Assembly (NCBI GenBank): GCA_026929865.2
Contig: CM049397.1
Location: 29,900,698 to 29,964,697, forward strand
DNA: 64,000 nucleotides
Source: Hyperoplus lanceolatus
Lineage: Eukaryota; Chordata; Actinopteri; Uranoscopiformes; Ammodytidae
Direction of reading: 5' to 3'
In this document: in pieces, positions 4,297 to 62,690 of the stretch
Numbering within the stretch: position 1 is the first letter of the stretch
Layout of the letters: every line of letters begins with the position of its first letter
Notes under the pieces: generated by a model
Databases searched by the model: none
Told to the model about the DNA's origin: nothing
What the model saw: the letters and a program-made list of their open reading frames with translations, nothing else
Position numbers and translations under genes: made by a program

Positions 4297-4522
4297 TACA
4301 GTATCTCACAAAAGTGAGTACACCCCTCACATTTCTTCACATTTTTCTTTATATCTTTCCATGGGACAACACTGAATAAATGACACTTTGATACAATGTA
4401 AAGTAGTCAGTGTACAGCTTGTATAACAGTGTAAATTTACTGTCCCCTCAAAATAACTCGACACACAGCCATTAATGTCTAAACTGCTGGCAACAAAAGT
4501 GAGTACACCCCTTAGAAAAAAT

Positions 4523-4858: not shown

Positions 4859-4867
4859 GCCCAGTTT

Positions 4868-5690
4868 ACGAAGGTTGAGTGCACATGGTCAGCGTCGTAC
4901 ACAGAGGTTGGCTTTGGAAAATAGACGTATGAGTGCTGCCAGCATTGCTGAAGGGCTTGAAGGGGTGGGGGGTCAACCTGTCAGTGCTCAGACCATACGC
5001 CGCACTCTGCATCATACTGGTCTGCATGGCTGTCGTCCCAGAAGGAAGCCTATTCTAAAGATGATGCACAAGAAACCCCACAAAAAGTTTGCTGAAGACA
5101 AACAGACTACGGACATGGATTACTGCAACCATGTCCTGTGGTCTGATGAGACCAAAATACATTTATTTGGTTCAGATGGTGTTAAGAGTGTGGACCGGCA
5201 ACCAGGTGAGGAGTACAAAGACAAGTGTGTCTTGCCTAGAGTCAAGCATGGTGGTTGGAGTGTCATGGTCTGGGGCTGCATGAGTGCTGCCAGCACTGGG
5301 GATCTACAGTTCATTGAATTCTAACATGTACTGTGACATACTGAAGCAGAGCATGATCCCCTCCCTTCATAAACTGGGCCACAGGGCAGTACTGCAACAT
5401 GATAACGACCCCAAACACCCCTCCGAACGACCACTGGCTTGCTAAAGAAGCTGAGGGTAAAGGTTATGGACTGGCCAAGCATGTCTCCAGTCTTAAACCC
5501 TATTGAGCATCTTTGGGGCATCCTAAAACGGGAGATAGAGGAGCGCAAGGACTCTAATATCCACCAGCTCCTTGATGTCGTCATGAATGGGTAGAAGAGG
5601 GTTCCAGTTGCAACCTGTGAAGCTCTAGTGAACTACATGCCCAAGAGGGTTAAGGCAGTGCTGGAAAATAATGATGGCAAAACAAAATAT
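4868..5690 (+). pseudogene. Tc1 transposase, N-terminally truncated and frameshifted
   Basis: The open part (4868-5324) contains NRRMSAASIAEG, then TIRRTLHHTGLHGCRPRR, then HVLWSDETKIHLFG with the first catalytic Asp, then HGGWSVMVWGCMSAA. After a stop at about 5322 the homology goes on in other frames: CATGATAACGACCCC encodes HDNDP near 5398 and the NPIEH block lies near 5495. The first N-terminal DNA-binding helices are gone, because the inverted duplication starts just upstream. Several frameshifts and stops make it non-functional. Confidence 0.85.
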
Positions 5691-5940
5691 TGACACTTTG
5701 GGCCCAATTTGGACATTTCTTCTTAGGGGTGTACTCACTTTTGTTGCCAGCAGTTTAGACATTAATGGCTGTGTGTCGAGTTATTTTGAGGGGACAGTAA
5801 ATTTACACTGTTATACAAGCTGTACACTGACTACTTGACATTGTATCAAAGTGTCATTTATTCAGTGTTGTCGCATGGAAAGATATAATGAAATATTTGA
5901 AGAAATGTGAGGGGTGTACTCACTTTTGTGAGATACTGTA

Positions 5941-18155: not shown

Positions 18156-18255
18156 ACAAGTTTAACGCCTATGTAACCTTAAAGGTGCAAAATGTGAAGA
18201 GCACCACCATCACAGTGCGTGGGGACCAGCCATGTTGGGAACAAGACTTCATGTT
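18156..18255 (+). CDS. unc13b: unc13b exon encoding C2A core strands
   Basis: This 100-nt exon follows a TTTTTCTAG acceptor and ends at a GTGAGT donor (18256). It encodes [17 protein letters not shown], then [17 protein letters not shown]. This is the conserved first half of the Munc13 C2A domain, the domain that homodimerises or binds the zinc finger of RIM to place Munc13 at the active zone. The GDQP wording agrees with UNC13B rather than UNC13A (GSQP). It enters in phase 1 and leaves in phase 2, and the final Phe codon is completed by the exon at 37671. One difference from mammals is Cys in place of Ser in QPSWEQ. Confidence 0.96.
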
Positions 18256-18519
18256 GTGAGTATATAACCTTATAATTACAATACAGACCAAGACAATCCC
18301 TCTGAGCCACCATTTCATTTCAATCAGATGGGCTTAAACAAAGTATTCATCTAACATGCTTGTGATGAGATACATTGCAATATAAGAGTCTTTGGCGATT
18401 CGACCCCATCATGATGTCATCTTAAAGGCGCAGTGTGTTAAAGGAATTTGTGTTTTTTTAAGATCAGTCTTGCTAGAAATTAATATTCATGTATGTTTTA
18501 ATTAGTGTAATGTGGGTAT

Positions 18520-26800: not shown

Positions 26801-27476
26801 GAAATGACCCTCCTCTGTCCAAAAAAAGGACTGATATCATTGTTATATTCTCAACTAATGTCTCTAGAAAACCATGACCTTTCAAAAATTAAGATCAGAT
26901 GGGAGGGCGAGTTGATGATTGAGTTGTTGGACAAACACTGGGAGGATGCTTTACAAAGGATTAACTCATCCTCATCATGTGCCGCTTGGGGCTCATTCAG
27001 TTTAAAGTAGTGCATAGGGCTCATTTCAGTAGGGCTAGGTTAGCAGATATATTCCAGGAACAGACGGCAGCTGTATTAGATGCTCCCTCTCCCCAGCTGA
27101 TTTAACACACCGTTTTGGTTGTGTCCCCGTTTAAATCAATATTGGTCATCTGTTTTTCAAACTTTATCTGAAGCCATGAAAATTAAAATTAAGCCCTGCC
27201 CGTTGATTGCAATATTCGGTATTCCAAGCGAGAGTTTAACCTTAACCCGGAATCAATCGGACATTATTGCTTTTACATCACTTCTTGCCCGTCGAAGAAT
27301 CTTATTGGCCTGGACTTCCCTGCTCCCCAGCAGTGGCCGCATGGTTACAGGATGTTTTATTTTTTCTTAAACTAGAAAAAGTTAAATTCACGGTGAGAGG
27401 CTCAGTCCAAAAATTTTATGTAAAATGGCAACCTTTTGTAACATATTTTGAGAATCTTAAAGTAATGCCTGAATAA
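23854..27476 (+). pseudogene. L1 ORF2p (endonuclease-reverse transcriptase), many breaks
   Basis: Homology starts with RFVSWNVKG, a stop, and then MNGLERSRIFSHLKQLKTDV and LFLQETHLR, the apurinic endonuclease domain with its Asn and Glu. The reverse transcriptase part shows VISLDAEKAFDRVEWKYLF near 25500 and the catalytic YADD at 25800-25811. The C-terminal region (26090-27010) keeps a long open stretch with THWQWGR-like spacing (TQWGRKQLS). It ends FYVKWQPFVTYFENLKVMPE at 27476. Numerous frameshifts and stops make it non-autonomous. Confidence 0.9.
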
Positions 27477-37670: not shown

Positions 37671-37788
37671 CGAGATCAACCATCTAGAGTCGGGTCTGGT
37701 GGTGGAGCTGTGGAACAAAGGTTTGATCTGGGACACTATGATCGGCACAGCACTGATTTCCCTGGACTCTATTCGACAGTCGAATGAG
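37671..37788 (+). CDS. unc13b: unc13b exon encoding second half of C2A
   Basis: 118 nt after acceptor TTCTACAG, ending at donor GTAACT. It completes Phe and encodes [18 protein letters not shown], then [21 protein letters not shown]. This matches the Munc13 block [15 protein letters not shown]...IRQSNE. It enters in phase 2 and leaves in phase 0. The intron upstream is 19.4 kb and holds the nested transposon stack. Together with the two earlier exons this covers most of the beta-sandwich. Like mammalian Munc13 C2A it is not expected to bind calcium, but this was not examined residue by residue. Confidence 0.96.
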
Positions 37789-39055
37789 GTAACTCAAACT
37801 GTTATGACGTATAGACACAACATTTTTTGTTTTTCCTCACAGAATTTCATTGTTTTTAACCAAAATGTCGCTATGTGTGACAAAATGTTTAGTGTACTGT
37901 ATGGCTACTCATACGCTTTTGTATTACTTCCAAACACATCAAATAGTTTTTAATCAGCAAATCATCTAAAATGGCATTTTTTTCCAATCTGTCCTAATGC
38001 ACAGATTCTAGAGAATGCTTTGGTCAAAATCAATATCTGTCCGTGCTGTTTCTGCTCTGATTAAAAAAACCTGGTGTTGATACTATAGGCTCTGTAAACT
38101 AAATGTTTTTCGCATGGTGGGCCCACTTTGTTTACATAACATTTGTTTACATACTACTTTACAGAGCCTAGGCTATGTATTAACACCATAAACTGTATAT
38201 TAAAGCGATTAACATTATTTTTTTTTCAGCACACACATAGTACAGACAGGTAGCTGATCTTGAGGAAATATTCACACATTTGAACTAAAAGTGATTTTGA
38301 CAACAAGCGTTCTTTAGAATTACTGACCCCACTTTTTAGCAGGGTTTCCTGGCTGTAATCTTTCCTGTTCATACTGACTGTGTGAGAAATCCCTTCAGAG
38401 TTTCCACAACACTGGTTATAACCCAGTGTTGTTCTGTTTATCGACAGTTCCCTTTATTCACAAAGTGGGAGAATCAAATTTTTCCAAATCTCTTACGTGG
38501 CTAATGACAATGTTATTTTTCCACCTGGCTGCTTGTGTGACATGTGGCGTGATGCTCCACACCCTCGCCGTTTTCTTTTTACAAATAACTTGTCATCAGG
38601 TCATGGCATGCCAACAGGAGGTAGAGAAGCTCAGAGATGATGTGGCCGTCAATTTCAACCTTGCAAGTCCTCAGTATAGGCTGGTGCGTGGGGGTTAACA
38701 GCTATTCCTAAAACCTTTCATATACATGTTAGCATTCATTTTACCACCCAAATAACATAGGTACAGGGATTTAGTGGATTTGGGGAGCCAGGGCCTTTAA
38801 AATTATATTATTATTTTATTATTTTTTTATAAAATAAAGCTCTCTCACATCTATCTTGCAAGTAATTTTTAATTTATTTTATTTTAATAGCAAACTGCTG
38901 GAGGGCTTGCCTCGTTGGTCGCTGGACCTCATTATTTTCTCTGGGGAGTTTTAAAGCGATGCAGCAGTTCGAGTGTAGTCATTGATAATGCACAATATTT
39001 GACTTCTATACTGTAGTTTGAAGTACAGTTAACGTTTTTTTTTTTTTTTTATCAG
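37789..39055. other. Intron sequence
   Basis: No further gene. A segment at about 38290-38340 (TTTTGACAACAAGCGTTCT) is a diverged piece of the repeat seen at 3106. A T-run of about 16 bases precedes the next acceptor. Confidence 0.5.
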
Positions 39056-39179
39056 GAAGGACCGGGACAATGGACGTGTGTGGACTCTGAAGTGCTAATG
39101 AGAGAGGACGAGGTCTGCGGGACGTCCAACCCAACTCCACATGAAGTGCTGCTGGACACTCGCTTTGAGCTGCCCTTTG
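39056..39179 (+). CDS. unc13b: unc13b exon, end of C2A and start of linker
   Basis: 124 nt after acceptor TTTATCAG, with donor GTACTT at 39180. It encodes [18 protein letters not shown], then [18 protein letters not shown] and FELPF. The wording [17 protein letters not shown] fits UNC13B ([17 protein letters not shown]) better than UNC13A (DPTFHRILLDAHFELPL). This is the best single piece of evidence for the paralogue. It enters in phase 0 and leaves in phase 1. The donor GTACTT is weak, but the phase and homology fix the boundary. Confidence 0.95.
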
Positions 39180-39622
39180 GTACTTACACGTTCACAAACA
39201 CACATTTAAAATAAAAAAGGAATAGTATTAGTATATAATACAAACGCAGAGCTACAGGGCCCCAGAAGTGGATGCAGCTTTAAAAAACTGACACGGTCTA
39301 ATTTATCTATGGACCTAACATCGAATTGAGCTTATATTGAGGTCTCAAAATCACTTTAAAACTCTGTAAAAGTATTGTGTCTCTTTATAGCGACCATAAT
39401 ATTGATTGTAAAATAATACAGAGTCTTTTATGAGATGACTTTTGACCAGATTCCAAACCAAGTAAAACAGAAGGAACCTCCATGTGTTTTGCTGAAGAAA
39501 AAAAAATATCTCTTTTAATGTTATAGACTCAATTCAGTCGGCCCATTTAATTTCTTGTAACAACAGCCTTGTACTTGGCTGCTATAGTCACTATATGTAT
39601 GCTATAACCTTTTATATATATA

Positions 39623-41231: not shown

Positions 41232-42429
41232 TACTATATATACTATCACAATGGGCTTCCTTGTAGAACCAACCACCATATTAAAACATGTTGAAGCAGC
41301 ACTAAATAAATAGTTTCTTCTTGGTAACAGGTTGGTGGCCCTTAATAAAATCCATAGTTTTTTTTCAGCACTCTTTAATCTGACTTATTTAAATTTTTAT
41401 TTCTCAAGTGTTTACACCTAAGTAGCATCGTTTCTTCGGACCATTTTTTTTTCTCCCCCTCGGCGAGACATAAATCACAGGGAGCTGTCTCAAGGGTGTG
41501 CTCTTCAGCTGCCTCTGTACGACTGTCTAGCACTCTATTTATCAACACTCCACACTCACCCTGATGTCAAGAAGGCCCCCGGTTCACGCTGCCGTCAGCT
41601 GGCCTTGACACAAATGCCGGTGCCTGAAGATGGAGATAAGATAGTGCTTGGCCTGTTTTAAGTAAACTTTGACAAATCCTTTTGAAAAAAAAAAGTTAAA
41701 GTAATTGACATGTAGTTTAAAACGTAGATACCAATCGGAGCTGAGTTGCATCTTTTTGGTCAACACTTTTGCAAATACCAGCAGAGTTTGGGATAGTCAG
41801 AAGGTAAAGACATGGGGGCAAATAATCTGTCTGGGGAAACAGATAGGTGATGATTTGAAACCTTGGAACTAGATTTATGAACATACTAGTTTTTTGTTGT
41901 TGAAATAAAGTACTTTACTTCCAACATATTAATGACATACATTTTATACTTGGGGAAATGGCAGAGACCATGGCCAAAGCCTTATACATTCTCTTTTCTC
42001 TACTCTTCTCTTCATCCACACACTCACACTTCTGTTCTCTGGCTTTGGTGGAGGACCTTTGAGGCCCAAGGGGTGGCTGTTAATTCTATTTTTAGGCCCC
42101 CAAAAGGAAACTTCCTCATTGGTTATTGAACAGCCATGAATATAAGATGGGAGCACATCATGCAACGTGGATGGGATATGACGGGGCTTCTTTTCGCACT
42201 TTGTTTCAAATTCAGTGTTTTGCATTATCCTAGTTCTCTATCCCTTCCCTCAACTCTACCATCCGTGCCTCCAACTATTCCTCCATTGCATGTCTCCTCC
42301 ACATCTTTCACCGCCCTCTCTTACACTCTCTCGTGAATTCAGTCTTTTGATTACATTTTTCTTTTTAACTTTTTTATTTTTTTTTTTTTTTCTCATTTTC
42401 AAACAATTTATTTCCTCCACCCTGTCCAG
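41232..42429. other. Intron sequence
   Basis: Contains CT-rich and T-rich stretches close to the acceptor (42340-42420). No gene or clear repeat element was seen. Confidence 0.5.
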
Positions 42430-42503
42430 ATATCCCGGACGACGAGGCGCATTACTGGACCAGTAAACTGGACCGGATCAACAGCATGCGGATACATGAC
42501 GAG
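42430..42503 (+). CDS. unc13b: unc13b exon encoding DIPDDEAHYW segment
   Basis: 74 nt after acceptor CCTGTCCAG, with a strong donor GTAAGT at 42504. It encodes (D)IPDDEAHYWTSKLDRIN, then SMRIHDE. This corresponds to the FDIPEEEARYW stretch that follows C2A in UNC13A and UNC13B. It enters in phase 1 and leaves in phase 0. The residues after the Trp diverge from mammals, as is usual for this linker. Confidence 0.94.
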
Positions 42504-43445: not shown

Positions 43446-43503
43446 TATCCACTACAAGAAGAAGTCCAGAGAAGAAGAATGGCATCTGTGCCTTCTCAGT
43501 GCT
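43446..43503 (+). CDS. unc13b: unc13b linker exon
   Basis: 58 nt after acceptor TTGTGACAG, with donor GTGAGT at 43504. It encodes YPLQEEVQRRRMASVPSQC plus the first base of the next codon. Mammalian UNC13 proteins have EYS.QEE...PLP...QC at this place, and the closing QC is conserved. It enters in phase 0 and leaves in phase 1, as required by both possible next exons (44614 or 46629). Confidence 0.9.
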
Positions 43504-43949
43504 GTGAGTATGGAAGTAGAAATATGGTACAACGCACTCATGCCATAGCACTTTCACAAGCGTGTTTTTGTATGTTAATGTGATGTGGGTCTATCTTCAT
43601 TGCATACTGATGACTTTGATTTGTAAAAACACATTTTCCTCATTCCTTGTTGTGTTTTGTGAGCAGGAAAATACATTTCATATAAGCCATCGGTCAAGTG
43701 CTGCTGCATTTAGGTTCTGACTTGTTCCATTTAAATTCACTTCAATGCCAGCAAATAATAAATAGTTTGAGCCTCCCCTTAAAAATCAAGCAAGGATTTT
43801 GGGGATGCACTATCCACTATTATCGGTAGTTATAAAGAGTTCCTGGAAATACTTTTTCCTGGTGATGTTTTGGTGTGTCAGAGTCAGTGATCTATTTTTC
43901 TTGTTCTACTCCACATTATTTCACAGTCACATTACTTCATGTGACTTAA

Positions 43950-46628: not shown

Positions 46629-46842
46629 CTTATGATGACCATGATAGTGCAGTGGATGACCGCGACAGTGACTACCGCAGTGAAACTGGCAACAGACCTC
46701 CCCGGTTCCACAACACCTCCCAGACAAATTCATCAATGCACCAGTACCCTATAGGACGCAGTCTCCAACATCAAACCCTGTCTAGGGAGACGGACTCCAT
46801 GCAAAGTTATGAGCTAGACTATAGAGAAATAAGGGGGCCCAG
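46629..46842 (+). CDS. unc13b: unc13b exon with [15 protein letters not shown] block
   Basis: 214 nt after acceptor TTTGTCCAG, with donor GTAAAC at 46843. It encodes [18 protein letters not shown], then [20 protein letters not shown] and [16 protein letters not shown]. The block [17 protein letters not shown] is nearly invariant in UNC13A and UNC13B. SMQSYDLDYPERR is the UNC13B wording. It enters in phase 1 and leaves in phase 2, with AG as the first two bases of an Arg codon. In known UNC13B proteins the next residues are ALSPTSSSRYGSS. Here the nearest compatible exon is instead the giant exon at 47330. Confidence 0.96.
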
Positions 46843-47329
46843 GTAAACAAATACAAGCTACACTAACACACACATCCCTGCCTCATCATTGAAATACCAT
46901 TTGATATTTATATTTTGTATGAATGCATGCTTTTTAATTTGTGGAGTCAAGTTACCAAGAGCAAACATAATCCATTGATTGAGGTTTTGAAAAAAAACAT
47001 CTTAGAAATACAGTGTTGCCATGAAAGAAAATGAGAAACAACTGTGATCCTACCAGGAGCTGAAACTTAACTTCACATAGGTTTTTCATGTGCTTAAGAA
47101 GCAGCAAAACAAACAACAGTCCCTATGCAATTGTGCATGGTATCAAACAAATACAGTTACTACCACTAGTGTACTTGGCTATTTTTCATTTGCTATTATA
47201 TTCCTTCTTTTTCCATGAATACTTTCTTTGCATGATCTTTTGTTTGTCTAATGCTTAAATCCTTTCCTTCCTTTCTTTTTCTTTCTTTTTCTCTGCTTCC
47301 TGCATGGCCCCTTTTTTTCTTAAATCCAG

Positions 47330-50300
47330 GCGGTCAAACAGTCAGGGTGCAGTTAGAATAATCCCTGTGGACTCGGGTATGGGTGTGGAGGATTGGGAGA
47401 GTAAATATAAAATTCCTGACTCAGGTGTCTTGGATGACTACTTGGATGCCGAGCAAAAACTGTGGGTGGACGAAGATAAAAGCATCATCTACCGCTTAAG
47501 TAACAACCCTTCTGAGTCCAAAAGCAGTAGGTTCTATCAGACAGTAGAATGTGATGCACTATCCCCTGACGATATAGAGGAGCCAAATGGCAGGCCACAC
47601 AGACAGAGGCGTGGCTTTGGTAGTGGAGAAGTCCGGTTAGTTTATAAGGAAGCTGGCAGCTTTGAGGATGAATTTTCCCCTCCAGAAATTGATATAATTC
47701 CGTCAGTTAAACAGCAACGGCAGCAGACAGATGGAGAAGGTCTTCTTTATAAGACCAGACTCTGGGCCAAAACTGCCTTAGAGGACACACTGGAGAGCTA
47801 TGCAGCTTTTCGTGAGGAGGAGGCTGCTCGGGAAGAGGCTGCTATGATAAGGGGGAGGAGTGAATATGGCTCAGTTGGTTCCGATGAAATGCAGTTTTAC
47901 TTTGGATCTGAGGAGGAACTAGATGACCTGACATTCACTGAGGGGGATGTTAGCTATGGATATGAAAGTTACTACTACCCTGACAAGTATATATCACATT
48001 TCGAAGGACAAGGCTATTCAAACAAAGGGAAAACATGTCATGGAGAAGATCCTATGTTGTCTCCTGTAGAGGAGCCAGGTGATGAATATGTAGATGCAAT
48101 GGATGAACTCCAGAGCTTAGTTCACTCAGTGTCTGAATACCTGGCTGTAAAAGAGGAGGAGATCAACAACTATGAATCAATTCCTAAACCAATTAGAAGA
48201 AAACTCCCAGCACTGCCAACCGAAGTTGTACCACCTGTGGACAGCACCGAAGGCAAACCTGAGGTTATTGAGGAGAGTGCTGTTGAACAGGGCATAGCTG
48301 GAGTAAAGAATGTCATGAGCTCATTATTTAGTTCAATCACAGGAGCCAAGTCTCCCACTGAGTTAGAAGCTTCTGCAAGAAGTCCATCTCCCCAACCAAC
48401 ACAAGCAGAATCTGGTATTTCAAAACTGCTGTCTTTCATCCCTGGTGTTAGCAATGAAGCCACGGACAGCTCTGGTGTCACTGCAGCAGATCCAACCACC
48501 ACCCACCCAGTATCACCCCAGCCTGAGACTGGTATTTCAAAGCTGCTTTCATTTATTCCAAAAAGTGGTGGCACTTCCCCACCAGTAGCCATAGTTCCTC
48601 CTGCCTCTCAGGAGCCCACAACAGAAAAAAAGTTTTCCCTCCAATCTCTTTTGGCATTTCAATCCCCTGAATCCAGTCGCCAAGCTGACACTGATCAGGC
48701 ATCAACACCTGTTGGCACAGGGGAGCAAGGCAGTGCAACTACTGCTAACCAATCTGGGTTTGAATCCATGTTAGGAAGGCTTAGTCCTTTGAGACTTTTT
48801 TCAAGTGCACCTCCATCTAGAGAGCCATCACCACAGCCATCAGAACAAATAAGTGTATCTTCTGCAAGCAATGAATCCCAGCAAGGGTCTGTTAAAAGAG
48901 CTGCAAGTCTTAATAGAGAGGGCTCACAAATAGAGCGACAGCTGTCAGGTGAGACAAGACCAGGTTCAGGAACTGGATCAGTTGATCTATTGCCAGATAC
49001 AGGGAGTGGATCACTTGAAACATGTAGTGGGTCAGTAGAACTTCTTCCAGAAACAGAATCATCTGGCGAACTACCTGATATTCAGCAAAGAAGAACTTCT
49101 GCAATATCCGAACCAAAACCTGAAAGCAGTTCAGAGGAAACAGGATTCTTCAGTCCTTTTAAGAAATCAATATCTTCCCTCATATCATCAGATTCTTTGC
49201 AGACTGACACCAAGCCTGAAGAAGAGTCGTCTTTAGGCAGCAAGCTCAAAATTCCATTTTTCACATCTGACAATAATTCGACAGCAACCCCACCAAAAAC
49301 AGAAGGAGGTATGCTCTCAGGGTTTCTTAAGTTTGCATCAGGTGAAGATACAAATGCCCCACCAAAGAGTGCATCCCCCATCCCTGCAAGAACTCCCTCT
49401 CCAAGTCGTGCTTCCCTACTTGAAAGTAGCCCTAAAGGAGCCCAGGAAACTGGCTGGTTTTCAAATCTGTTTAAGGCAACACCAAGTGAACCTGTTAAGC
49501 AACCTGCAAAACAACAAATCCCCCCCACTGTGATTCTAACCACACCTAGCGATCAAACTGAGCCACATACTGAACAAATGGTCCCTGACACCAAAGAGAT
49601 CACTCTCTGTAAAACAGAACAATTGTCTCAAGATCCTCAGAACAAGACAGATTTCCAGCCAGAAGCAATTGTAACAACTAAAGATCAAGCGTCTCCCAAG
49701 CCTGAGGAACAACCACAAGCCTCACAGGCTCAGGGAATTATGGCTGGATTACTGAAACTAGGATCAACAGAAGACGTATCGTCTGAAAAGAAAGCCCAGG
49801 GAGGGGATAATCAGCCTCAACAAGGTGGTCTATTTTCAGGCCTATTTTCATCACCTTCCCAGTCTCCCCAGCAAACTCAACAGAATTCTGCCACACAACA
49901 GTCGGGAGGACTTTTGTCTGGATTTCTAAAATTTGCCTCTGATGCCTCTAATGTTTCTGCTCCTACAAATCCGTCATTGTCAACCTTGTCAGGAAGCCAA
50001 TCTGGCCAAATATCTACACAAAATCAATCAGGACAACCTGCTGCTGCACAGCCACCTACTGAAGGATATTTGTCTGGGTTTTTGAAAAAAGCTGCTGACA
50101 CAGTAACCGGGTCTCAACCAACCCTGTCCAGTCAAGAGCCACAACCAGATACAGCTGGCCAAATGGTCAAAAAGGAAGGGTCTGAACAAAACTTGAGTCA
50201 AGGGACCACACCTCCTACAAAGTCAGCAGAAAGTTTGAAAAGATTTGGTTCAACAGAATCACCTCACCTTGACAAAAGTCAACCTGACCAGCAACAAAAG

Positions 50301-53300
50301 CAAGCTGGAGCTTCAGATCAACAACCAAACGTACAGCAACAGCCTGATCAAACAACAGAACAACTACCTCCTCAACCTAGTGGATTGTTTGGAGGTTTAT
50401 TTAAACCTACAGAAACTGCTACCCAGCCACCAAAAGGACCTACAGCTACACAATCTCCACAACCAAAACCACAACCAAGACTAGCACAGCAAGCACCTCC
50501 TCAACAAGGAGGCTTCTTCTCTGGTCTGTTTGGAATGGGGGGCCAAGACTCTGCTAATCCGAATCAAGCCCAGCCTTCACAAAACCAGCAGCAGCATAGT
50601 AGTCCAATGAGACAACAACCTAATCAGCAACCAGGAAATAGACAAAACCAGCAACAGCCAAACAAAGTCCCTCCACAACAGCCGCCCAGTAGCCCTGGAG
50701 GGATGCTCACTGGGTTATTTAACAAAATTGCAGATGCAGGCACCCCAGAGACTACAGTGGGGAGTCAATCACAGCAGCAACAGGCACAAAGAGCAGACCC
50801 TAAGACCAGCCAGCAACCAGCTAATCAACAGACAGGCTTCTTCTCTGGGCTATTTTCAGCAGGTCCTCCTCCGCGAGCACAGCAGCAGCCACCTGTTAGT
50901 CATCCAAACCAACAGCAACCCCAACAAGGTAACAGACAGCCTCTGCGTAGGCAAAATCAGATACCTCCACAAACTGCTGCCTACGCACCAGAGCCACAGC
51001 AGGGTGGGCTATTATCTGGCCTCTTTAATAAGTTAGCATCAACAGAAACATCACAACAGCCCACCCCACAGACTGGGCCTCAACAGGGCAATAAACCAAA
51101 CACTGTTGGACCTGGTCAATCTGCAGCTCATCAATCATCTCAACCAAGTCAACAAGGAGGATTCTTGTCTGGTCTGTTCGGTCCGACTGCACCCCCAAAT
51201 CAGCAAATGTCAAATCCTCAACAAACAACAACCCAACAGCCTATTCCAAGTGGAGGCTTGCTTTCAGGTATACTGAAACTTGCATCTGGTGAAAATGTGC
51301 CACAAGAACAACAGTCACCTCAACCGGCTCAGACCGATCAACCTTCTGTTAAGTCAGAAGCAAATCCAGTCCAGTCTGAATCAGGGGGATTATTCTCTGG
51401 CCTTATTAACAAAATTTCAGGTAGTGTGGAACACTCATCATCACCTTCTGATCAGGTGAACCCTCAAACAACACAGAACCAACTTACACAACGTGCAGGA
51501 CAGGGGCGACCACAGATTCAGAGAACCAAACAAGTGGAGATGAATTCCTCCCACGATGTGTCCACGGACAAAGATTTAAAAGGTCCAGCTCAGAAAGGTT
51601 TTCTCTCAGGTATTTTTAGTACCAAGGAGGAGCCATCATCAAACACACAGCAGCCATCAACCCCTCATATTGGCAAGGAAGAGCCAAAAACCAACACAGC
51701 TCCTGGTTTGTTATCCAGCGTTTTCAAAACAGGCTCCAGCGACAGTAGCACTTCTACTCCAGGGAAAGAAACAGAAAAAGGTCCTCTTGATCGTTTACTA
51801 CCAAAGGGTAAGGAGGATATTCCTATAAGTACAGCAACACTCACACCTACTGTTGTTACAGCAACTTCATCTGTGGATGCCTCTAAAGAACCTCTGCAAC
51901 CTCAGGTTTGGCAAGATCCCACAATTAACCCAACCCAGTGTTACCTTGAGGAAATTCAACGTCTCTTGTATGGGACAGCACATGAATATGGTTACAAGGA
52001 TCTTTTATACAACTTTACAGAGAGTGGTGTTATTCCACCAGACCTGTATGAACATCAGTGTCTCATTGAAGCTCTTCTGTGGCAACAACTCAATGATTAC
52101 GCCCTTGCTGAAGCCCTTGCCACTGAAGCTCAGAAACGCTCCCAGGCATGCCAAGGGCATATGCCCCCAACGATTAGAGAACCTCAAATGGAGAATCGCC
52201 AATGGTTAAATCCTGTGGAAATGGACATAAGTAACTTCAATGTACCCTCACATCCTTGGAGAGATGCTAATGCCGACCTTTTTGAGAGCAGAAATCGCTT
52301 TTTTGAGCCAGATGAAGATCTTGTGTTGTTTGACATGAGTTCAAGAAACAAGAAATCCTGGAGTAGCTGTGACCACTTGAATGGTCTTGATGGGAACAAA
52401 AGACCATGGATTGTGGAAAGTAGTGCTCTTAATCTGTCCACAGAAAAACCAAAGAAACGGTATAGTAGATGTCAGTCACTTACAGAATGCAGTGCACAGG
52501 AAATCAGCAAAGTATTGGACAAGAGTGGTGTTATTTCTGATGTAAAAGATGAAGCCTTGGGTTTGAAATCAGCAACTGATTTTTTAAAACAACTTGCTAA
52601 AAAAAAGGGTCCAATAGACTTAACACATGGTGCTATTAATTTAAGCAGTTCTGCAGGAGCTATAGGGGATGTGGATGGTGAAATGCTATTTGAGGATTCT
52701 GAGTGGTATCAACAATGGCTTTCACTACTGGAGCAAGGGATGTGGTGGCCAGCTGAGGCTGGGGACTGTGGTTATTATGTTTATACAGAAGAGGGTTACA
52801 TTTATTCCCTTTTAACTGACAGAGCTGGTAAACACCTATATGCCTGTGCTGCTCCAGAAGATGTTCAAGCTCTAGAAAATATCACTGAAAATATTGCAAG
52901 CATTCTCAAACAAAAACAGAAGGAAAAAGTTACCCTTTGTGGTTTTAAAATCCCCCTGTGCACCGAAGATAATGGTTTCTGGATTCCAGGTCAACAACAG
53001 AATAAAGTAGTGCTTTCAGATGCTCCCGTGGACTTAACTTATGCCCTTAGGAAAGGTGAAAAAATTATGAACATGAATTTGGAAAGTTTCTCTCAAATGT
53101 TTCAGGAATCCATATCTCATCAAGCAGAGCAGGCCGTAGACTTCAGTGTGTACAAGCTTCAAAAGATCAAGGTGGAATCAGTACAAAATGGATATAGCTG
53201 TCAGGAGGAGCCAACTGAAGCAGCTGATCTAACTTTGAATACGATGAAAGGTGGACATGGAGGGCCATACTGGAAGAATCAGGATATGAAAGACGTGCTA

Positions 53301-56300
53301 ACCCTTTCACCTGCAACTTCTCCAAGGACATTTACAAAACAAATTTCTCCAAACAAACGTTTCCCAATTCCTGAAATTAGGATTGCACATGCAGGTGATA
53401 CAACTGTCCAACCAATACAAAAACCAATCACCACTGTAATGCCTTCTAACAGTGGTGCAAGTAAACAGTCATCCCCAATACCTGCTGCATCCCCATCAGT
53501 GTCTAATCTTCCTGAAACCCCATCAGCTTCAAAAATACCAGGACCTGTACATTTAGGAAGGAAACTGCCTACAACATCAGCTGCCACAAACGTGACTTCA
53601 GCTATTTCAACAACAGCTCTGGCAACTTCTGTTAAGAGTTTACCCACTATATCTTCTACAACTGTGACTGCTCCTTCTGTTTCTCCACAGAAACCCCAAC
53701 TTGTAAGGCAGCCATCTCAGGCAGACAAACCTAGAGTATTACCACAAGTGAATAAGACTACAGTCACAGGGATGGGTGCCTTTAGCAAAGTTACTGGTAC
53801 ACTAGTCATGGACAAAACATCTCCCATGTCTCAAAAACAGCTACAGGAATCAACTCCGGAATTTAAACCGAAGTTACACATACTGAATGAAAACTTGACA
53901 TATAATGAAGCCCACCTTTACAATAGAAATCGTAACATTGGCATTCCTGTGGGTGCTCAAATGGGAAATAAAGTCCTAGATTTTTCTCCAAAAATTAATA
54001 AAAACAAAGATGTCAAACAAAAAGATGCATCAGACCACAAATTAGAATCTAAACAAAAAGATGATGTTGTTGATTTCACAAAGTACAAGTTGAAAAATTA
54101 CAAAGAGAAAAAGCAAATGGAAACTACTACAAATGTGAACTCAACTGACAAGACCAAAAATGCTGTAGATCTTACTAAACAGAATGAGGAAGAAGAAGTT
54201 GAATGGCCTATTTCAGAACATACCACTGTGGCCACATCACAGCAAAGTCCAAAAATGTCAGTTGTGATAAGAGATGCTCAAATCAACTATAGGTCAGTAG
54301 CTGAACAGAGCAAATCAGAAAGAAGATTGTCCAGTCCAGACGCAAGAGTTGGCCATGTATCCTCTACAATGCATATCCAAAGACCACTAGTCTCCCAGAG
54401 TGTCTCCATAACTGATATGAACCAAACTGGCATAAAAGTCTCTGCAAAAGATGCAAAAGACATTTCATCCAAATTGTCTCTTACATCAGCTGATACATTT
54501 CCAAAGAGTTCTGACATTAGCATTGTGGTATCAGAAACAAGAAGGTCTTCCATCACTCATATTTCTGGTAAAGCATCTGCCCATGATGCAGGTCTTCAAA
54601 AAACTCCAAACACGCAACCATTGCAACCCATATGTCCTCCACACTTGGTAAGCCCTGTTATGAGAAATCAAGATAACACCAGAGGAGGGCAACTGAATTA
54701 TTCATTACATTTGCAACCAAATATGCATCACAATCCACCAATAGCTTCAACTGGTTTTAGGCAGCAAATTCCTGCTGACAGTATGATAGCAACTTTTACA
54801 CATCCTTCCCATCAATATAGTGGAAAGGGGACCAGTGCACCAGCAAACTCAAATAAAACTTTATTAGATATGTCTGCTAAGGCAAAAGTCACAAAGAGTC
54901 CAGAAACTGTTGTGCCATCAAAAGATCCTGTCTGCGAGGCACTATCATTGACAAACAGAAGACCAGTATTTTCTGAGAAGGCAGCCACACGTACTAGTCG
55001 TCATGAATCCATTGACTTATCATGTCAAGGAGAATCACCAGAGCCTCAGGGAAAAACCACAGAATGTATTAATTCCCTTCCTGTTGATGAACATCCTTAT
55101 TCTACTATAACAGATACTCCGGTAAATGGCTCTGTGGGGATAAACGAATTTCCATCTGGTCGTAGGAGACCATTGTTACCTAGACAACAGTCTCCATTAC
55201 GTCAGTCTTCTGAATCCCTTGAAGCAACAGCACCAGCCAATACAATTAAAGCCACACTAGATATGACTTCTAAGTCTTCTGCCAAATTGAAGGAGGGGGT
55301 TCTTGAAGTAAGAACAGCTGACCCTTATACTGAAGCTATATCACTATCGAAAAGCAAGCCAAGTGCCCGTGAACTTGCACGAGAATATTCTGTTGGTGTA
55401 CCACTAGTTGTTGATATCCCTTCTCAAGAACCTCTCAGAGACATTTTTATCAGCTCTCCTGCACAGCAGGGGTTTGAGAATTACAATCAGAGTCAGTCTA
55501 CTGTATATCAACAACAATATTGTCAGAGAAAACCTGATGTTGTTGTCTCACCAAATCACTCAATGTTACAGCTGTCAGCAACTGTACAAACACATCAGAC
55601 ATCCACTTCAACAAAACCTGACATGGCTACTGTAATGGATATGTCCCCCAAGCCATCCCAAATCACACTGCAAACAGCAATGCTAAAAGAGTCTACACAA
55701 AGTGAAGCAATTTCGCTTCTTAATAAGCCAAGTGCAAGAGCTGTTGCCAGAAAAGATTCTGTTGGTCTTTCCCTAGTAGTTGAACCAAGATTGGAATCAA
55801 CATGTGAGAAGCAACCTCAAACTGTGGACAGGAATAGTCCCTGCAATGGAACTGTCCCTGTTTTCAATGTACTACCTTCCAGCTGTAGGACAGAGCCGCG
55901 TTCTAGTACAAGTGAGACCACTGCTATGCCACAGTCCATTATCCATCCACTCCTTTCTGCTCCAGCAAACTCTATTAAAGGCACGTTAGATATGTCAACC
56001 AGGTCATGTAAATCAGACACAGTGCTAAACTATTTGGATCCAGTATCGCTGGTAAGGGCTAGGGCATCGTCATTGGAATATTCTCAAAGAGATTATGTTG
56101 GTGTTCCACTAATTGTGGACACAAACCAGGCCCTGGAACAACCTAAAAGGCAACAGACACGGACAGGATCACGAGAACAGATGCAACAAAGATGTATTTG
56201 CAGTGAATCTCCAAAAATGGATCCAAGAGCATCTGCACCAGCAAACTCCATCAAGAGCTTCCTAGACATGTCTCCAAAACCACATCAGATTGAATCTTTT

Positions 56301-59300
56301 CCTGAAACAGCACCTGATTTCTCGTCATCTGAACCAGTGTCATTGGTCAGAAACATGGACACAGTAAAAATCAATTATTCTGTTGGTGTACCACTCTTAG
56401 TGGAGCAATCTGCACCCCAACAAGAAAATACAACTGAGGCCATGCAAAGACAGAAATCAACCAACCACAACGCTGAGATCATGTGTGGTTCAAGGCATAC
56501 ATCTAAGGAAACACACCAACAAAATAAGCCAGTGGATTTCTCAGCAAAAGACAGCCTAAATACAATAAACATTTCAAGTAATCACGTTGAGCAGGAGGAT
56601 GGCCAGCCAATGAATTTTACTAGCAACAAAGAAAAGAAGGAAATGTTTGAAAGATGGCCAACTCGAGGGCAGTCAGGATATAAAGCAAATATTATGGACC
56701 TAACTATTAATCATCAAAACAAAACCACAGTTATTGGTCCTGAAGATGTGAAGGATCTTTCCTCCAACATGCCTTCTCTGTCTCAAGGTACCCTTCATCA
56801 TCATCAGCAATATATACCTCCACCCACTCCAAATGTGCTCAGAGAAGATACAGTATTTTCTCCAACTCAGAAGACACTACAGCATAGAGAATATTCTACT
56901 GATAAACCTGCCACCACACAACCTGGAATACATTGCAGAAGGCAGTCAGGACCAGAATTGAATGCTGCCCCAATGAATACTTTAGTATCTCCTTTGGTGC
57001 CTATTCAAATGAAGATACAGCATCCTCCGCTCCAAACACAACATTCAGTTCCACAACAGCAATACCAGCAACCTAGTCAGGATATCGGTTTGTATTCATC
57101 TATTGCCAGGTCTCAGCCAAAGCCCCCAAAGTTGACAAGACAAGAGACAATGGTTCAGCATGACGTAACCCATGTACCGAAAATTCTTATCAGGCAGCCA
57201 ACTGTGGAAAGCTCTGGGAGCAATGAGCAAAGCCCATTAGATAGTGGAGCAATGACAAGTAATATTCAGGAATTGCCACCAGTTTCTACCCAGCAACTCT
57301 ATGGCAGAACCCAAACAGTTTTTACCCCACAGCCTGTTAATCTTGAGTCATCACCTGCTCCATTTATTCAGAAAGCACATGATAGACAGCCTGTGCAGAA
57401 CAGTACCAGTATAGATCTTTCTTCAAAAGCTCCTGTTCAACTCTCAAAACAACCGGATCCGAACCAATACCCCGTCACTTTCCAGAATTATCCCACACAT
57501 ACTGTACCCTCAAATACTGTTTCAACTCAACGTGCACTTATATCACAACCCAGCACTAAACAGGACTCAATGCTTGCAAAACCTGTCAAGAGTACTGATA
57601 TAAACCAGGGCTTTGGAGCTGAAATGCGAGGACCACCGGTATCTTTGACACCAGCTGGATCCAGCTCTGTTAAGGGTTTGATTTCATTATTCAGTGGAGA
57701 AGTTTCACAGCCCTCTGTCAGTACAAAACCAGTTGCTGTTATGCCCCACCACACTGAAATTGCATCTACACCTGTGGACCATAGGACACAAGTTTCTCCA
57801 ATACAGACTTCTGCTGTCAGCCATTTTGCTCCTGACAAGAACACAGCATCTGCATTGAGCACATCTACCGTGCACAGCAATGTTGATGGAACAATTGCCC
57901 CAGCAATACATGTTGTTACAATACCAGAGAAAATTGATTTGGGCCCACAAATGCCTGTTGTTGCTAGCTGTCCGCCCAGCACACCAGCACCTGTTAGTGA
58001 CCAAGATGTCTCAACAGATAACAAAACAACTCAAGCTAAATTATTTGCTGAATCTAGCCCACTGTCAACTGGTGAACCATCTGAGCTATCCAACAATCAA
58101 TTTGCAGCTAGCTCAGCAAGAGATACACAAGTGAAAGAATTGCCCCCTCCTGATTCCTCGACAGCTAAACCAATAGAATCCATGACACCTAAAGAAATTC
58201 TAAGTAAAGTGGGCCCAGGACCTTCAGAAATATTGTCAGATGCTACAGCTAAAACAATCACAGAAGAAGTTTTGGCCACCACAGATAGCATGGCTGTATC
58301 TGCATCAGACATATCACAGGAGGAAATTAGCCACCCACGGTCAATTTACATTGGCATTAATTCCTCATCTCCTGTTGATACCAAAATGGAATCAGGTGAG
58401 CAACAACCCTATATTAGACTACCCCATATTTTTGTCTCAGCAGCAAGCTCACCAGAAGAGGAGACAGTTGAACATGAATTAAATGAAAGTTGCAAGACTG
58501 AACTACCAGCAGTCAGTGCTTCTCAAGATATCAATCAAATTCCGACAATGGCACTAGAAATTAAGGATTCTATACCTGTTGATATTCTTGGACAGTCTAA
58601 AATATCTGAGGATGCTGGAACTACAGACATCATCAACACAGAGGCATTCATTGAAACTGAGCAGGTCAAGACATGCTCACCAGACTTGTCAATTACACTG
58701 ACTTCCGCAGATGATACGCTTGCAGATGAACATGACTCACAGTACTTAACCAAGATAAGCTCAAGCACAGAAGCTACTAACTCAGAACCTGAAGTAAAAA
58801 CAGAGACCACTGACGTATCTGAACAACCACTTGAGCCATCTTCTGAGGAAATTAAATCAACAGCAGCAGATATAACACCACTTGAAATATTACCCGGTGA
58901 CCTGCCCAGTAAGGTTGCAGACACAGCATCACCAGAAGTAGATAAAACTCTTGAGGAGTTAGCCCAAAAGGATACAAGCACAATTTCAGACGTGATATTG
59001 TCTAGAGTTCAGTCTGTTGATAATTTGTCCCTGAAAGAAGAAGAATCAGATGTAAAATCATCTGAAACATTACAACAGCTTCAGGACAAAACCGAAATGC
59101 AAGTTAACTTATCTGATCCTGAACCCAGTCCTGTCAAACCTCCCACAGAAGAAATCACAACCTCCAAGGAAAGTTTAGATGTGAAAGTTGATCAGTCCGA
59201 GGCTGAAAAATCTAATGACCAACCGGGAAAAGGCATATTTTCCACATTGAGTGGCTCTTCAGCAACCCCACAGCAAACACCTTCCCAATCTGGATTATCA

Positions 59301-62300
59301 ATGCTTGGTGGCATTCTTCCTGGCTCCGCTACCAAAGACATTCCTGGCACAGGCTTTCTCTCAATGTTTGGTGGGTCAAATGCCCCATCTTCACCTGGAT
59401 CCAAAGATCCACCACCACCACCACTGTCAGCCCCACAAGAGCCACAGGGAAAAGGCTTATTCTCCATGTTTGGTGGGCCCAGTAGTCAGCCACCAACTGG
59501 CCCAAGAGGTCCAACTAGTGGAGGTGTGCGACCTCGAGGTCCTCCGCCCAAAGAACCTCCAAGCAAAGGCCTGTTTTCCATGTTTGGTGGATCTGCACCT
59601 CAACAGCCACCGGGTCCCAGAGGTCCTCCAGGAGGTACTGCCACGCCAAGTGGGTCTTCCATGTTTAGTGGCATCCTCCAAGGTTCTACTACACAAAACG
59701 AAACCCCTGGTGCAGGTTTGTTTTCCAAGTTTGGAGGACTTGGTTCCCAGCCACAAACTGGACCTAGAATGACCACAGCAGGACCGAGAGGTCCCACCCA
59801 AGGGCCCAGAGGTCCCCCCACAGGACCAAGAGGCCCACCCCCAGGACCCAGAGCTCCGGAGCCCTCAAGTAAAGGAATGTTCTCTATGTTTGGTGGACAA
59901 AACCAGCAAGCATCGGACGCACATCCCGCAGCCTCAAACCCACCTGAATCAGAGAGTGTTTTCAAAGTTCCCTCTGTGTTTTCACTTGGTGGGAATTCTG
60001 ATAGTAGCAAATCTAAAACTGGATTTGGCCTATTTGGAATGTCTTTCATGGAGGAAACCAAGACAGAGCCTGAAATAATTATTCCTGTGAAGGAGGATAT
60101 TGCTCAAAAAGTAGACACAATTGATATTTCTAAAGAAGGAAAGGATCACATCGTTGAGTCCTTGGAAAATGTACCCGCTGGGCCTCTTTGTGATTCGTCA
60201 GATAAGTTGGAGCTCCAAGTAGATCAGGCAAGCCAAGATGGTTCAGATTCAACCTTGGATATCAATAAAATTACTACTGACCTTGCCTGTAATGAAAATC
60301 CCTCAGCTGTGGCTGCAGCTCATGCCACAGACACAACTAATATGGCCAGTGATTTTCTAGAGAAAGAGACATTATTGGACCAACAAGCTGCACAACCTGT
60401 TAGTGAGGAACAGTCAGACATCCAAAAAGAATACAAAGAAGTCAAAGATACCGTGGATGCTGAAAAAGATGTGGCTGACACAGAAACAGATACTTTTAAA
60501 GTAGTGACCTTAGGTCAGGAAACTGACAATATGCTGACACCAATAGGAGTTTCTACAGACGAAAATAAAGTATTAGATACGGATGTAGTTGAACATGTAC
60601 AAGATGTGGTTGAAGGAGACAAACCAATTCCAGAGGTAGAAAAAGAAACTGAAGAGTCTCTGAAAGTATCTGGTGAAGGGCATACTGCAGTTGTAGATGC
60701 AGTTAAAACAAATGAGGAGCCTTTGGAAGTTGATATTAAAGAAGAAGTAGTTGCAGATGTGACCAGCTTAAGTACGAAACCTGTGGAAGGTGTTGGTGTG
60801 GAACAAACAGCTGTTACAGATGTTGAAGAATTAACTAAAGAACCTACAGAGGTTTTTGGTGATGAAAAGGCAGCTGTTGCAGATGTGGAAAAATCTACTG
60901 AAGAGGCAACTGTAGCTGATACAGTGATAACAGAGAAACCTACTATATCTATGCCGGGTTCAGATACAACAGAGTCTGCTATTTTAGAATCAGACACATC
61001 TAGCAAAGATGATTTGAAAGCCACAGTTGATGAGACTGCTATTGAACCAATTGAGGCTAAGTCAGAGCCTGGAGATGACATTAAAGAACCTGCACTTGGG
61101 TTAGAGAAACCCGTTGAAAGTACTATTTCTGTGGTGGCGGTCTCATCATCAGATGAAGAAAAAACTATCATCACTAACTCACCAGAGATCATGACATCTC
61201 AAGTGGTCGGGCCTCTGACAGATCCATCAATGGTCCCTGCTTGTCTTCCTCCACAGCAACAACCCAGGCCAGGCATGGCCAGGCCACCTGGCCCACCAGG
61301 ACAAAGAATGGGAGCACCAAGGATGGGAGGGCCACGGATGGGGGGATCAAGAATGGCAGGGCCAAGAATGGCTGGACCAAGACAGACAGGACCACAGAGA
61401 CCCCCTGAACCAGCTCAATTTTCTGGCTTCATGTCTATGTTTTCTACCCCAAGTGCCCCAAGTAAACCACAAAATGTTGGTGGATTTTTTTCAAGTTCAC
61501 CTGGTTCATTTTTTGGATCATCACCTGCTCCTCGCCAGCCACAACAACAACAACAACAGAAAAGCTCATTTTTTGGTCTTCCAACTAACATTGCTACAGA
61601 ATCCCTTACCAGTGACATATTTGGTATGTTTAAAGGTCCTGAAACAACACAATCTGAGGAACATAAACAGCCTGACACAGAGTCTGGAAAGGGGGATCCT
61701 TCTGAGGTAGCAAAGGTAACAGTCTCTGAGAGCACTGAACAGACAGATACAGAGAAGACACCTGTATCTGGAAATGAACATGTTAAAAGCACTGATGACT
61801 CTGAGGTCCTGGAAAAAGGATTATTGGAGGAGGCAGAGCAAACTGACAAAACAGGGGAAGAACAAACTGACAAAACAGAGGCAGAAGAAAGTTCTCCGAC
61901 AGAATCCATCGTGAAAACGGCTTCACTTGACAAAGAAGCAGAGCATGCTGAGAAATTAGAGGGGCCTGGTAATGCAGAGGTTGACAAAGCCGCACCACCC
62001 CCAGCTCCTGAAACCAAGGGAATGTTTGACATACCAGGTCTGACCACCCCTTCATTTGGCTTCATGTCTGCTGCTGCTGAGGGCACATCTATTGGATCCC
62101 TTTTCTCCACCACTCCATCTCCAACCACGGGGGCTAAGACAACACAGCCGCAACAGACAGATGGCGGTCTCTTTTCTGGTTTTAAAAACCTTTCAGCTGG
62201 TATTTTCCAGGAGGAAAAGCCACCTGGGAAGGAGGAGCCATCACCTGCTTCATCATCTATGTTTGGCATGAAACTTGGCTCAATGTTTGGGAGCCCTGAC

Positions 62301-62690
62301 CCTCCAAAAGCTGAACCCACCCCTCCAGTGATCACAGTCCAACCTCAATCACAAATTCCCAAATCTACAGATGAACCTTGTGAGCCGGACCCTGACACAC
62401 TTTCTCAAGGTTCTGAAGCAACTGGAAGTCCAGATGCCAGTGACATAGAAGGACCAACAGACACTTCCAAAACAGGAAGCTGTGACTCCTTAGCACAGTC
62501 CCCACTGTCTGGCCTCCCCTCTGACCCAGTTTCTCTAATAGAAGGTTTCGATAAACCTGAGTTAAAGATCACCCCATGTGAGGTAGACAAGAATCAAGTT
62601 GACACACCTGACACTATGCATGCAGATTTGGGAACAGAGCAACCAAAGGACCTGTTGGAAGCTGATAAAAGGCTAGTACAATTTGTGTGA
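47330..62690 (+). CDS. unc13b: Giant ~15.4-kb coding exon of unc13b (about 5,120 residues)
   Basis: The exon begins after acceptor TTAAATCCAG (AG at 47328-47329). Its first base completes the AG|G Arg codon of the previous exon, giving RGPR then RSNSQGAV. The frame is open to TGA at 62688-62690. The ATG at 47304 lies in the pyrimidine tract before the acceptor, so it is not the start of this exon in the spliced mRNA. The composition is that of a disordered scaffold (Gln, Pro, Ser, Thr, Glu). Numbering from 47304, the parts are: acidic head (about 30-330), aromatic modules (332-1484), a helical segment (1535-1614), a Trp-rich segment (1793-1959), short D-L-S/T motifs (1676-3372), a five-unit repeat (2512-3035), an acidic region, FSMFGG modules (3973-4253), an acidic repeat, and further F/G modules (4653-5003). 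The function is unknown. An active-zone scaffold role is inferred from the gene. An internal donor before the stop that rejoins the Munc13 frame is possible. Confidence 0.9.
47388..47890 (+). other. Protein region: conserved-looking acidic head of the giant exon
   Basis: Residues about 29-195. It contains EDWESKYKIPDSGVLDDYLD, EQKLWVDEDKSIIYRLSNNP and then LLYKTRLWAKTALEDTLESY with FREEEAAREEA. The last part is a predicted charged amphipathic helix. Lower Q/P content and Trp, Tyr and Leu spacing suggest that it can fold or bind a partner. I do not recognise a named domain. Confidence 0.55.
48297..51755 (+). repeat. Protein repeat field: about 20 GGLLSGLF-type modules
   Basis: Short modules of pattern G-G-(L/F/M)-(L/F)-S-G-(L/F/I)-(F/L)-(K/N)-x-A recur every 30-70 residues. 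Examples are SGISKLLSFIPG, GGMLSGFLKFASGED, GGLFSGLFSS, GGLLSGFLKFASD, GYLSGFLKKAAD, GGFFSGLFGMGG, GGMLTGLFNKIADAG, GGLLSGLFNKLAST, GGFLSGLFGPT, GGLLSGILKLASGEN, GGLFSGLINKISG and KGFLSGIFSTKEE. The linkers are Gln/Pro/Ser/Thr-rich, most strongly at 50280-51540. Each module could form a short amphipathic helix with a hydrophobic face. Confidence 0.85.
51906..52145 (+). other. Protein region: helical segment of the giant exon
   Basis: Residues 1535-1614. It contains CYLEEIQRLLYGTAHEYGY, KDLLYNFTESGVIPPDLYEH and CLIEALLWQQLNDYALAEAL. The composition is Leu, Tyr, Glu and Gln with almost no Pro after the middle, so it should be an alpha-helical folded unit. It differs sharply from the disordered sequence on both sides. 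I do not recognise the family. Confidence 0.65.
52680..53180 (+). other. Protein region: Trp/Tyr-rich segment of the giant exon
   Basis: Residues 1793-1959. It contains EWYQQWLSLLEQGMWWPAEA, DCGYYVYTEEGYIYSLLTDR and HLYACAAPEDVQALENITEN, then TLCGFKIPLCTEDNGFWIPG. It is rich in Trp, Tyr and Cys and poor in Pro, so it is the best candidate for a globular domain in the exon. It ends with two D-(L/F)-(T/S) motifs (PVDLTYALRKGEK and AVDFSVYKLQKIKV). I know no named domain that fits. Confidence 0.65.
54837..56409 (+). repeat. Protein tandem repeat: five APANSIK...LDMS...VGVPLVVD units
   Basis: The units begin near 54837, 55230, 55614 (decayed start), 55959 and 56235, so they are 276-393 nt long. 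Each has APAN(S/T)IKxxLDM(S/T)xK, then (E/D)xxSLxxxxxSA and then (Y/D)SVGVPLxV(D/E). The last motif is present in units 2-5 (YSVGVPLVVD, DSVGLSLVVE, DYVGVPLIVD, YSVGVPLLVE) and is replaced in unit 1. Coding sequence between units is diverged, so the duplication is old and the motifs are kept. Confidence 0.85.
58140..59220 (+). other. Protein region: acidic Ser/Thr/Glu-rich stretch
   Basis: Residues about 3613-3973. Dominated by Glu, Asp, Ser and Thr with few aromatic residues, for example VKTETTDVSEQPLEPSSEEI. Predicted disordered. No motif recognised. Confidence 0.6.
59220..60060 (+). repeat. Protein repeat field: FSMFGG modules and GPRG linkers
   Basis: Residues about 3973-4253. The modules are GKGIFSTLSG, SGLSMLGGILPG, GFLSMFGGS, KGLFSMFGGP, KGLFSMFGGS, SSMFSGILQG, GAGLFSKFGGL, KGMFSMFGGQ and FGLFGMSFM, spaced by about 30 residues. 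The linkers include (G)PRGP repeats at 59755-59860, for example GPRGPPTGPRGPPPGPR, which are collagen-like in pattern but too short to form a triple helix. Similar design to the N-terminal module field, but with Met and Gly-Gly at the end. Confidence 0.85.
60630..60930 (+). repeat. Protein tandem repeat: acidic VADVEKSTEE units
   Basis: Residues about 4443-4543. About four units of 25-35 residues with the pattern (A/T)(A/V)V(A/T/V)DVEK-T(E/K)EP-EV--(D/E)E. Examples are AVVDAVKTNEEPLEV, AVTDVEELTKEPTEV and AVADVEKSTEEATVA. Confidence 0.7.
61260..62310 (+). repeat. Protein repeat field: RMGGPRM repeats and C-terminal F/G modules
   Basis: Residues about 4653-5003. A run of GAPRMGGPRMGGSRMAGPRM (61312-61371) is followed by SGFMSMFSTPS, GGFFSSSPGSFFGSSPAP, a Q7 run near 61540, SSFFGLP, SDIFGMFKGP, KGMFDIPGL, GSLFSTTPSP, GGLFSGFKNLSAGIF and SSMFGMKLGSMFGSPDPP. 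It mirrors the N-terminal module field. Confidence 0.8.

Follow-up and report, generated by a model that had tools for sequence, protein, structure and literature searches.

We analyzed a stretch of 64,000 nucleotides from the genome of the fish Hyperoplus lanceolatus (contig CM049397.1, here C3, positions 29,900,698 to 29,964,697 of the forward strand; the window). It carries the C2A side of UNC13B, the gene for the priming factor Munc13-2, and, following these exons, a giant reading frame which is the subject of this analysis. The frame is open from stop to stop for 5143 codons (window positions 47259-62690, + strand), and the window contains no N bases. An original prediction, made from the letters of the window, had described more than 15 kb without a stop at this place, in agreement with the frame found here. 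Conservation was assessed by comparing the two UNC13B genes of this one genome, that of the window on C3 and a second one on contig C18.

The UNC13B gene and its giant open frame

A first-order Markov simulation of a 15.4-kb stretch, using the exon's own dinucleotides, gave a longest open run of 232 amino acids and a mean of the maxima of 149 (20 trials, six frames). The remaining five frames of the real exon contained between 160 and 427 stops each. The simulated maximum bears out the earlier statement that random sequence does not stay open this long.

The last UNC13B exon before the giant exon (46629-46842, +) encodes a sequence ending in RGPR. Its 3' end reads GGG CCC AG, followed by gtaaac, and the donor is in phase 2; the homologous exon in both UNC13A genes of this genome was found to end in the same phase. 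The giant exon (47330-62671, +; 15,342 nt, the length of 5114 codons) is entered in phase 2 and is left in phase 2 if the GC donor discussed below is used. Its acceptor at 47329/47330 consists of the pyrimidine-rich tract TTTTTTTCTTAAATCCAG and an AG, followed by G CGG at 47330. The AG|G across the 46842/47330 junction forms an Arg codon, as had been claimed for the first base behind the acceptor, and the open frame reaches just 71 bases upstream of the acceptor. The sequence VRI-PVDSG is conserved in both UNC13B copies and lies upstream of the first Met of the giant exon; therefore, translation should enter from an upstream exon. A phase-2 acceptor of the C18 copy, CTAAG|A, leads to RLLNQKGRVRI, which aligns without gaps to RRSNSQGAVRI of the window, and a possible alternative phase-2 acceptor GGAAG|G is located a few codons further on. 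The phase-2 junctions in the window and in the C18 gene also agree with the earlier view that the exon is in phase with the C2A side. Based on these comparisons, it is very probable that this frame is a genuine coding exon of UNC13B.

Upstream of this junction, C2A-domain coding was found in two matched stretches of exon (18155-18256, with matches on C18, C9, and C12, and 37672-37788, matched by sequence search). They are followed by a stretch of the exon after C2A (39053-39181, also matched by sequence search), the exon DIPDDEAHYWTSKL... (42426-42503, the end of which was placed by eye before gtaagt), and a stretch of the exon YPLQEEVQ... (43446-43508, from its match to the C18 gene), all on the + strand. 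The joined C2A-side exons of the window match Pfam C2 (E 6.9e-10), and the same exons are present on C18, C9, and C12. Downstream, on the same contig and strand, L008:2485-2712 matches Pfam C1_1 (E 5.8e-16), and exon matches to the MUN family PF06292 were found at G000:C3:30025336-30052557 (+) and also on C18. A 944-codon frame lies on C3 past the giant exon and ahead of the common exons, with a 763-codon relative placed likewise on C18, and both are related to a 1466-codon frame on contig C1, which carries MUN exons as well. From features of the UNC13 family, we take the 944-codon frame to be the first exon of bMunc13-2 and the gene on contig C1 to be UNC13C. The genes on C9 and C12 have C2A-side and MUN exons and gave no match to the b exon at E 0.001; they were taken as UNC13A, a naming that rests on family features too. 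On both C3 and C18, a b-type alternative first exon and the C2A side occur in one gene, and the two genes were assigned to UNC13B on this combination.

By reading, the donor of the b-type first exon is in phase 1 (L006-L007 on C3; L020-L021 on C18), and the following common exon on C3 is apparently entered in phase 2. At least one further exon should therefore lie between them. The window also contains a remnant of a Tc1/mariner-type transposon (4281-5953), in which a frame at 4605-5321 matches Pfam HTH_Tnp_Tc3_2 (E 6.8e-15); related copies are located close to the C18 UNC13B gene. A frame of 309 codons with no Pfam match lies in a UNC13B intron at 26081-27010 (+).

Conservation of the frame and the intron that holds it

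In the C18 UNC13B gene a giant frame of 3479 codons is flanked by the same UNC13B exons as in the window, and the two genes have their exons in collinear order. For the first 223 residues after the acceptor, the sole other genome matches at E 0.001 were found on C18, inside the 3479-codon frame. A central query of 483 residues matched the genome on C18 only, at E up to 1 (E 6.3e-62). Using blastp with low-complexity filtering, four matching blocks were found between the two giant proteins (E 5.9e-69, 6.9e-50, 9.2e-8, and 9.1e-6), spanning from the region before the first Met to near the exon end, while the reversed C18 protein gave zero blocks as a control.

In a global alignment 1088 residues were identical over 3201 aligned codons. 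The reversed control gave 753 of 3112; therefore, between the blocks a large part of the alignment does not exceed what composition alone gives. Identity at the three codon positions was 0.467, 0.570, and 0.335 over all 3201 aligned codons, and 0.588, 0.695, and 0.380 over the 1066 columns in alignment windows of at least 40% identity, a choice that favours the first two positions. Within these better-aligned columns, fourfold sites at conserved residues were identical in 87 of 269 cases (32%). For the core of both genes, compared over 12 matched stretches, the corresponding numbers were 98 of 215 fourfold sites and 508 of 599 residues. The duplication that gave rise to the UNC13B pair is old, and it is probably the teleost one. 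Because the protein blocks are conserved with fourfold sites only 32% identical, the protein has been selected for since that duplication, and it was kept while evolving far faster than the core. The counterpart in the same intron, the conserved protein and the much diverged silent sites agree with the original prediction that the frame is protein-coding.

We also compared the intron with its homologs in the two UNC13A genes, on C12 and C9. There, the next exon begins AG|T approximately 1.8 and 3.6 kb on, and no giant frame was found in these introns on the gene's strand; the longest gene-strand frames in the two 10-kb UNC13A loci were 394 and 317 codons, starting just before the linker exon. 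The intron donor is in phase 2 in four of four genes, and the acceptor is in phase 2 in all three genes in which the next exon was seen (C18, C9, and C12). The acceptor of the giant exon is in phase 2 in both copies, and symmetry at the donor end rests on the candidate GC site. The UNC13A introns thus look like natural empty sites, and the giant exon, known here solely from the two UNC13B genes, would sit in an old phase-2 intron. A match between the first 400 residues of the giant exon and the UNC13A linker exon of C9 (E 6.7e-4, 22% identity, no composition correction) was set aside, as it looks like shared Ser/Gly/Glu-rich composition.

The encoded segment

The giant segment was taken as mostly disordered by composition, because it is rich in Ser, Pro, Thr, and Gln (12.4, 9.8, 8.2, and 7.8% in the window copy). 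It starts with an N-terminal conserved block (47337-48461, +) that has 36% identity to the C18 counterpart (blastp E 6.9e-50). A central conserved block (51942-53342, +; blastp E 1.5e-67) contains a Trp/Tyr-rich core, EDSEWYQQWLSLLEQGMWWPAE-GDCGYYVYT (52677-52994), and a C-terminal conserved block (62055-62366, +) has 39% identity (blastp E 9.1e-6). Ten short hydrophobic motifs of the GGLLSGLF type were counted in Q/P/S-rich sequence at 49305-51617 (+). The whole exon protein has 11 of these motifs, compared to a mean of 0.04 and a maximum of 1 in 200 shuffles, for a motif that was picked after reading the sequence. Pattern scans further gave three KGLFSMFGG-type motifs in P/G-rich sequence (59451-59738, +), two of this type being present in the C18 counterpart, and three APANSxKxxLDMS and four VGVPLVV-type motifs at 54837-56402 (+). 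The latter two kinds were not found in the C18 counterpart, and parts of the scaffold therefore seem to turn over quickly.

Neither Pfam nor NCBIfam contained a family that scored above cut-off against the giant exon, and the candidate Pfam DUF2076, in Q-rich sequence, was rejected at 21.4 bits with a cut-off of 38. No significant match of the central block to PDB sequences was found with a single query or a two-row profile (best E 0.36, and none). The same block gave 2 and 27 pattern matches in viral and prokaryotic contig collections, of which none was confirmed; this says nothing on vertebrates.

Three tandem arrays are located in the giant exon (59779-59857, 61298-61382, and 61830-61890), with periods of 21, 15, and 24, all multiples of three. 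Opposite its 3' part, an antisense frame of 309 codons (61415-62344, -) has no Pfam match and is probably a shadow of codon bias.

Downstream end and proposed use of the giant exon

Five to six codons before the stop, both giant exons carry the identical sequence AAG|GCTAGT in phase 2, with the GC at 62672-62673 (+) in the window. The lengths up to this site are 15,342 nt in the window and 10,233 nt on C18, both multiples of three. Across the whole exons, phase-2 GC sites scoring at least 4.4 were found twice in that of the window and once in that of C18, this end site being one of them in each exon. No phase-2 GT donor scoring above 0 was found in the last 1.5 kb of both giant exons, and only one GT donor of any phase scored above 3 in the last 1.2 kb (window 62578, phase 1). 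The donor matrix was a simple frequency matrix; the two neighbouring real donors score only 3.6 and 1.1, so that its separation is weak. Cryptic GT donors are not depleted within the giant exons; their observed counts lie within those of synonymous shuffles. We infer that AAG|GCTAGT serves as a GC-type donor. The stop codon at 62688-62690 (+) would then be intronic, and would be the end of the protein if the donor is not used. Of the single exon originally drawn to 62690, the frame and the acceptor stand, but its end is possibly at 62671 and not at the stop.

On C18 the next UNC13B exon is entered at a phase-2 acceptor, CATTGTAG|T CCA. The exon after this linker exon carries RVRWLKAINKIRVQL, a sequence similar to the calmodulin site, with Trp first, of Munc13-1 and ubMunc13-2; a Trp at position 1 of that site is described in passages of PMC7017353.

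Since the candidate GC-type donor is common to both genes and the next exon of C18 has a phase-2 acceptor, we favour the view that the frame is a giant cassette exon of UNC13B whose use is alternative, and that it places a scaffold after C2A and before the calmodulin/C1/MUN part of Munc13-2 (probability about 0.6); this view is preferred to a last exon at roughly two to one. The exon phases would permit C2A, the giant segment, and MUN to share one transcript. Two products had been considered originally, a scaffold between C2A and the rest of the protein or a C2A-scaffold protein, and it is the former that these sites support. If the exon is skipped, the C2A-side exons would be spliced to the next linker exon, with ordinary ubMunc13-2 as the product. 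If it is included (acceptor 47330, GC-type donor 62672, both in phase 2), approximately 5,115 residues would be placed between C2A and the calmodulin-binding/C1/C2B/MUN part, and the product would be a Munc13-2 of more than 6,500 residues, more than tripled in size. By analogy to the giant ankyrins, the segment would most likely serve as a long flexible tether in which docking sites are spaced out (the N-terminal block, the GGLLSGLF array, and the Trp/Tyr-rich module), linking the priming factor to other active-zone components or vesicles across a long distance. The part of Munc13 past the insert senses calmodulin and diacylglycerol and helps to open syntaxin. The C2A domain of Munc13 in its ordinary form has been proposed to homodimerise, with RIM disrupting the dimers (PMC5436228).

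Several observations weigh against a cassette with such a function. The 12 identical bases AAAAGGCTAGTA at the proposed donor also encode the conserved residues KRLV, and 7 of 87 four-residue identical windows match at all 12 bases, the AAAAGGCTAGTA window included. GC donors usually read GCAAGT, and GCTAGT is a poor GC donor. The LV past the proposed junction is conserved as well, and both stops follow within five to six codons. In the C18 copy the stop codon is overlapped by an AATAAA, which may be a poly(A) signal that leaves a very short 3' end. C3 did not show the next exon, with 10,000 of the 164,000 bases examined (window and fetched loci) being N. The scaffold function is read from composition and motifs, and the two single-sequence structure models, which hint at three strands between two helices for the Trp/Tyr core, were of low confidence (mean predicted local distance difference test scores of 33.2 and 43.0).

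The same end of the exon can be read as that of an alternative last exon, with the protein ending at the stop at 62688-62690. The product would be a C2A-scaffold of more than 5,300 residues that lacks C1, C2B, and MUN; it could still bind RIM but would be unable to prime vesicles. We find this unlikely, although it is the alternative that survives best. Both counterparts stop within five to six codons of the conserved KRLV, conservation extends that far, and neither giant exon showed an in-frame GT donor close to its end. The window has ATTAAA 483 and 589 bases past the stop, and C18 has the AATAAA overlapping its stop. However, between the C18 stop and the next exon no further AATAAA or ATTAAA was found, just less common variants (TATAAA and CATAAA among them); the C18 AATAAA has no equivalent in the window copy and would allow for hardly any 3' untranslated region. 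The evidence from poly(A) signals is mixed. The final residues differ between the copies (QFV and EA), so that they share no C-terminal motif, and AAG|GCTAGT at the end has phase 2, a kind of site that is rare in these exons. A terminal exon would give a product without the priming domain that could act as an anchor or as a RIM competitor.

Transcription from a separate promoter inside or just before the giant frame, not joined to C2A, is considerably less probable still. The introns of the gene are long and its b-type first exon shows that another start exists further downstream, but the VRI-PVDSG before the first Met is conserved in both genes and preceded by phase-2 acceptors, and the frame continues for just 71 bases ahead of the acceptor. 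A frame that is a decaying relic or open by chance, giving no protein, would suit the low-complexity, poorly alignable parts of the frame (1088 of 3201 identical vs. 753 of 3112 in the reversed control), but is scarcely credible for 5143 codons without a stop, a long frame kept in two copies with fourfold sites 32% identical, and blocks at E 5.9e-69 and 6.9e-50.

Compared to known proteins, the cassette form would share its gene and flanking exons with the C2A-containing ubMunc13-2, a protein of about 1,600 residues that lacks the insert of approximately 5,100 residues. The amino-terminal exons of bMunc13-2 and Munc13-3 (UNC13C) are likewise long single exons of the UNC13 family, but they differ in sequence and replace C2A, whereas the giant exon follows it. 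Piccolo and Bassoon are very large active-zone scaffolds and are encoded by separate genes, unlike the giant exon of UNC13B. Some UNC13B gene models of vertebrates, human included, may have a very long transcript, which would lower the novelty; literature searches for candidate accessions of such models gave nothing. In the giant ankyrins (ANK3 and Drosophila Ank2L), a very long exon adds a long insert to an otherwise ordinary neuronal protein, as described in PMC5135030. These inserts organise the axon initial segment, and the likeness drawn to the giant exon is one of architecture. No description of a giant or long UNC13B exon or isoform was found among the papers listed in literature searches, nor in passages of PMC7660176, PMC11446547, PMC12457776, PMC7017353, PMC10616205, PMC11802453, PMC1794582, and PMC10839115.

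Altogether, we give slightly better than even odds that UNC13B of this fish, and likely of teleosts generally, encodes a priming factor of more than 6,500 residues that is active-zone scaffold and priming factor at once, a form that splicing at a conserved GC donor would select. Munc13 proteins set the release probability, and it is still debated how they come to lie at release sites. If the reading is true, Munc13-2 joined to a scaffold of three times its own size would be a direct candidate for the factor that places priming at specialised synapses. The ribbon synapses of photoreceptors and bipolar cells in mouse retina have ubMunc13-2 as their form, according to passages of PMC7660176. The finding further concerns the recognition of an internal exon of 15 kb whose donor is weak and not GT. 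Should other vertebrates have the exon, work on the form of approximately 1,600 residues may have missed a giant one, and what is suggested here is a giant Munc13 form that has been left out of standard accounts of the synapse.

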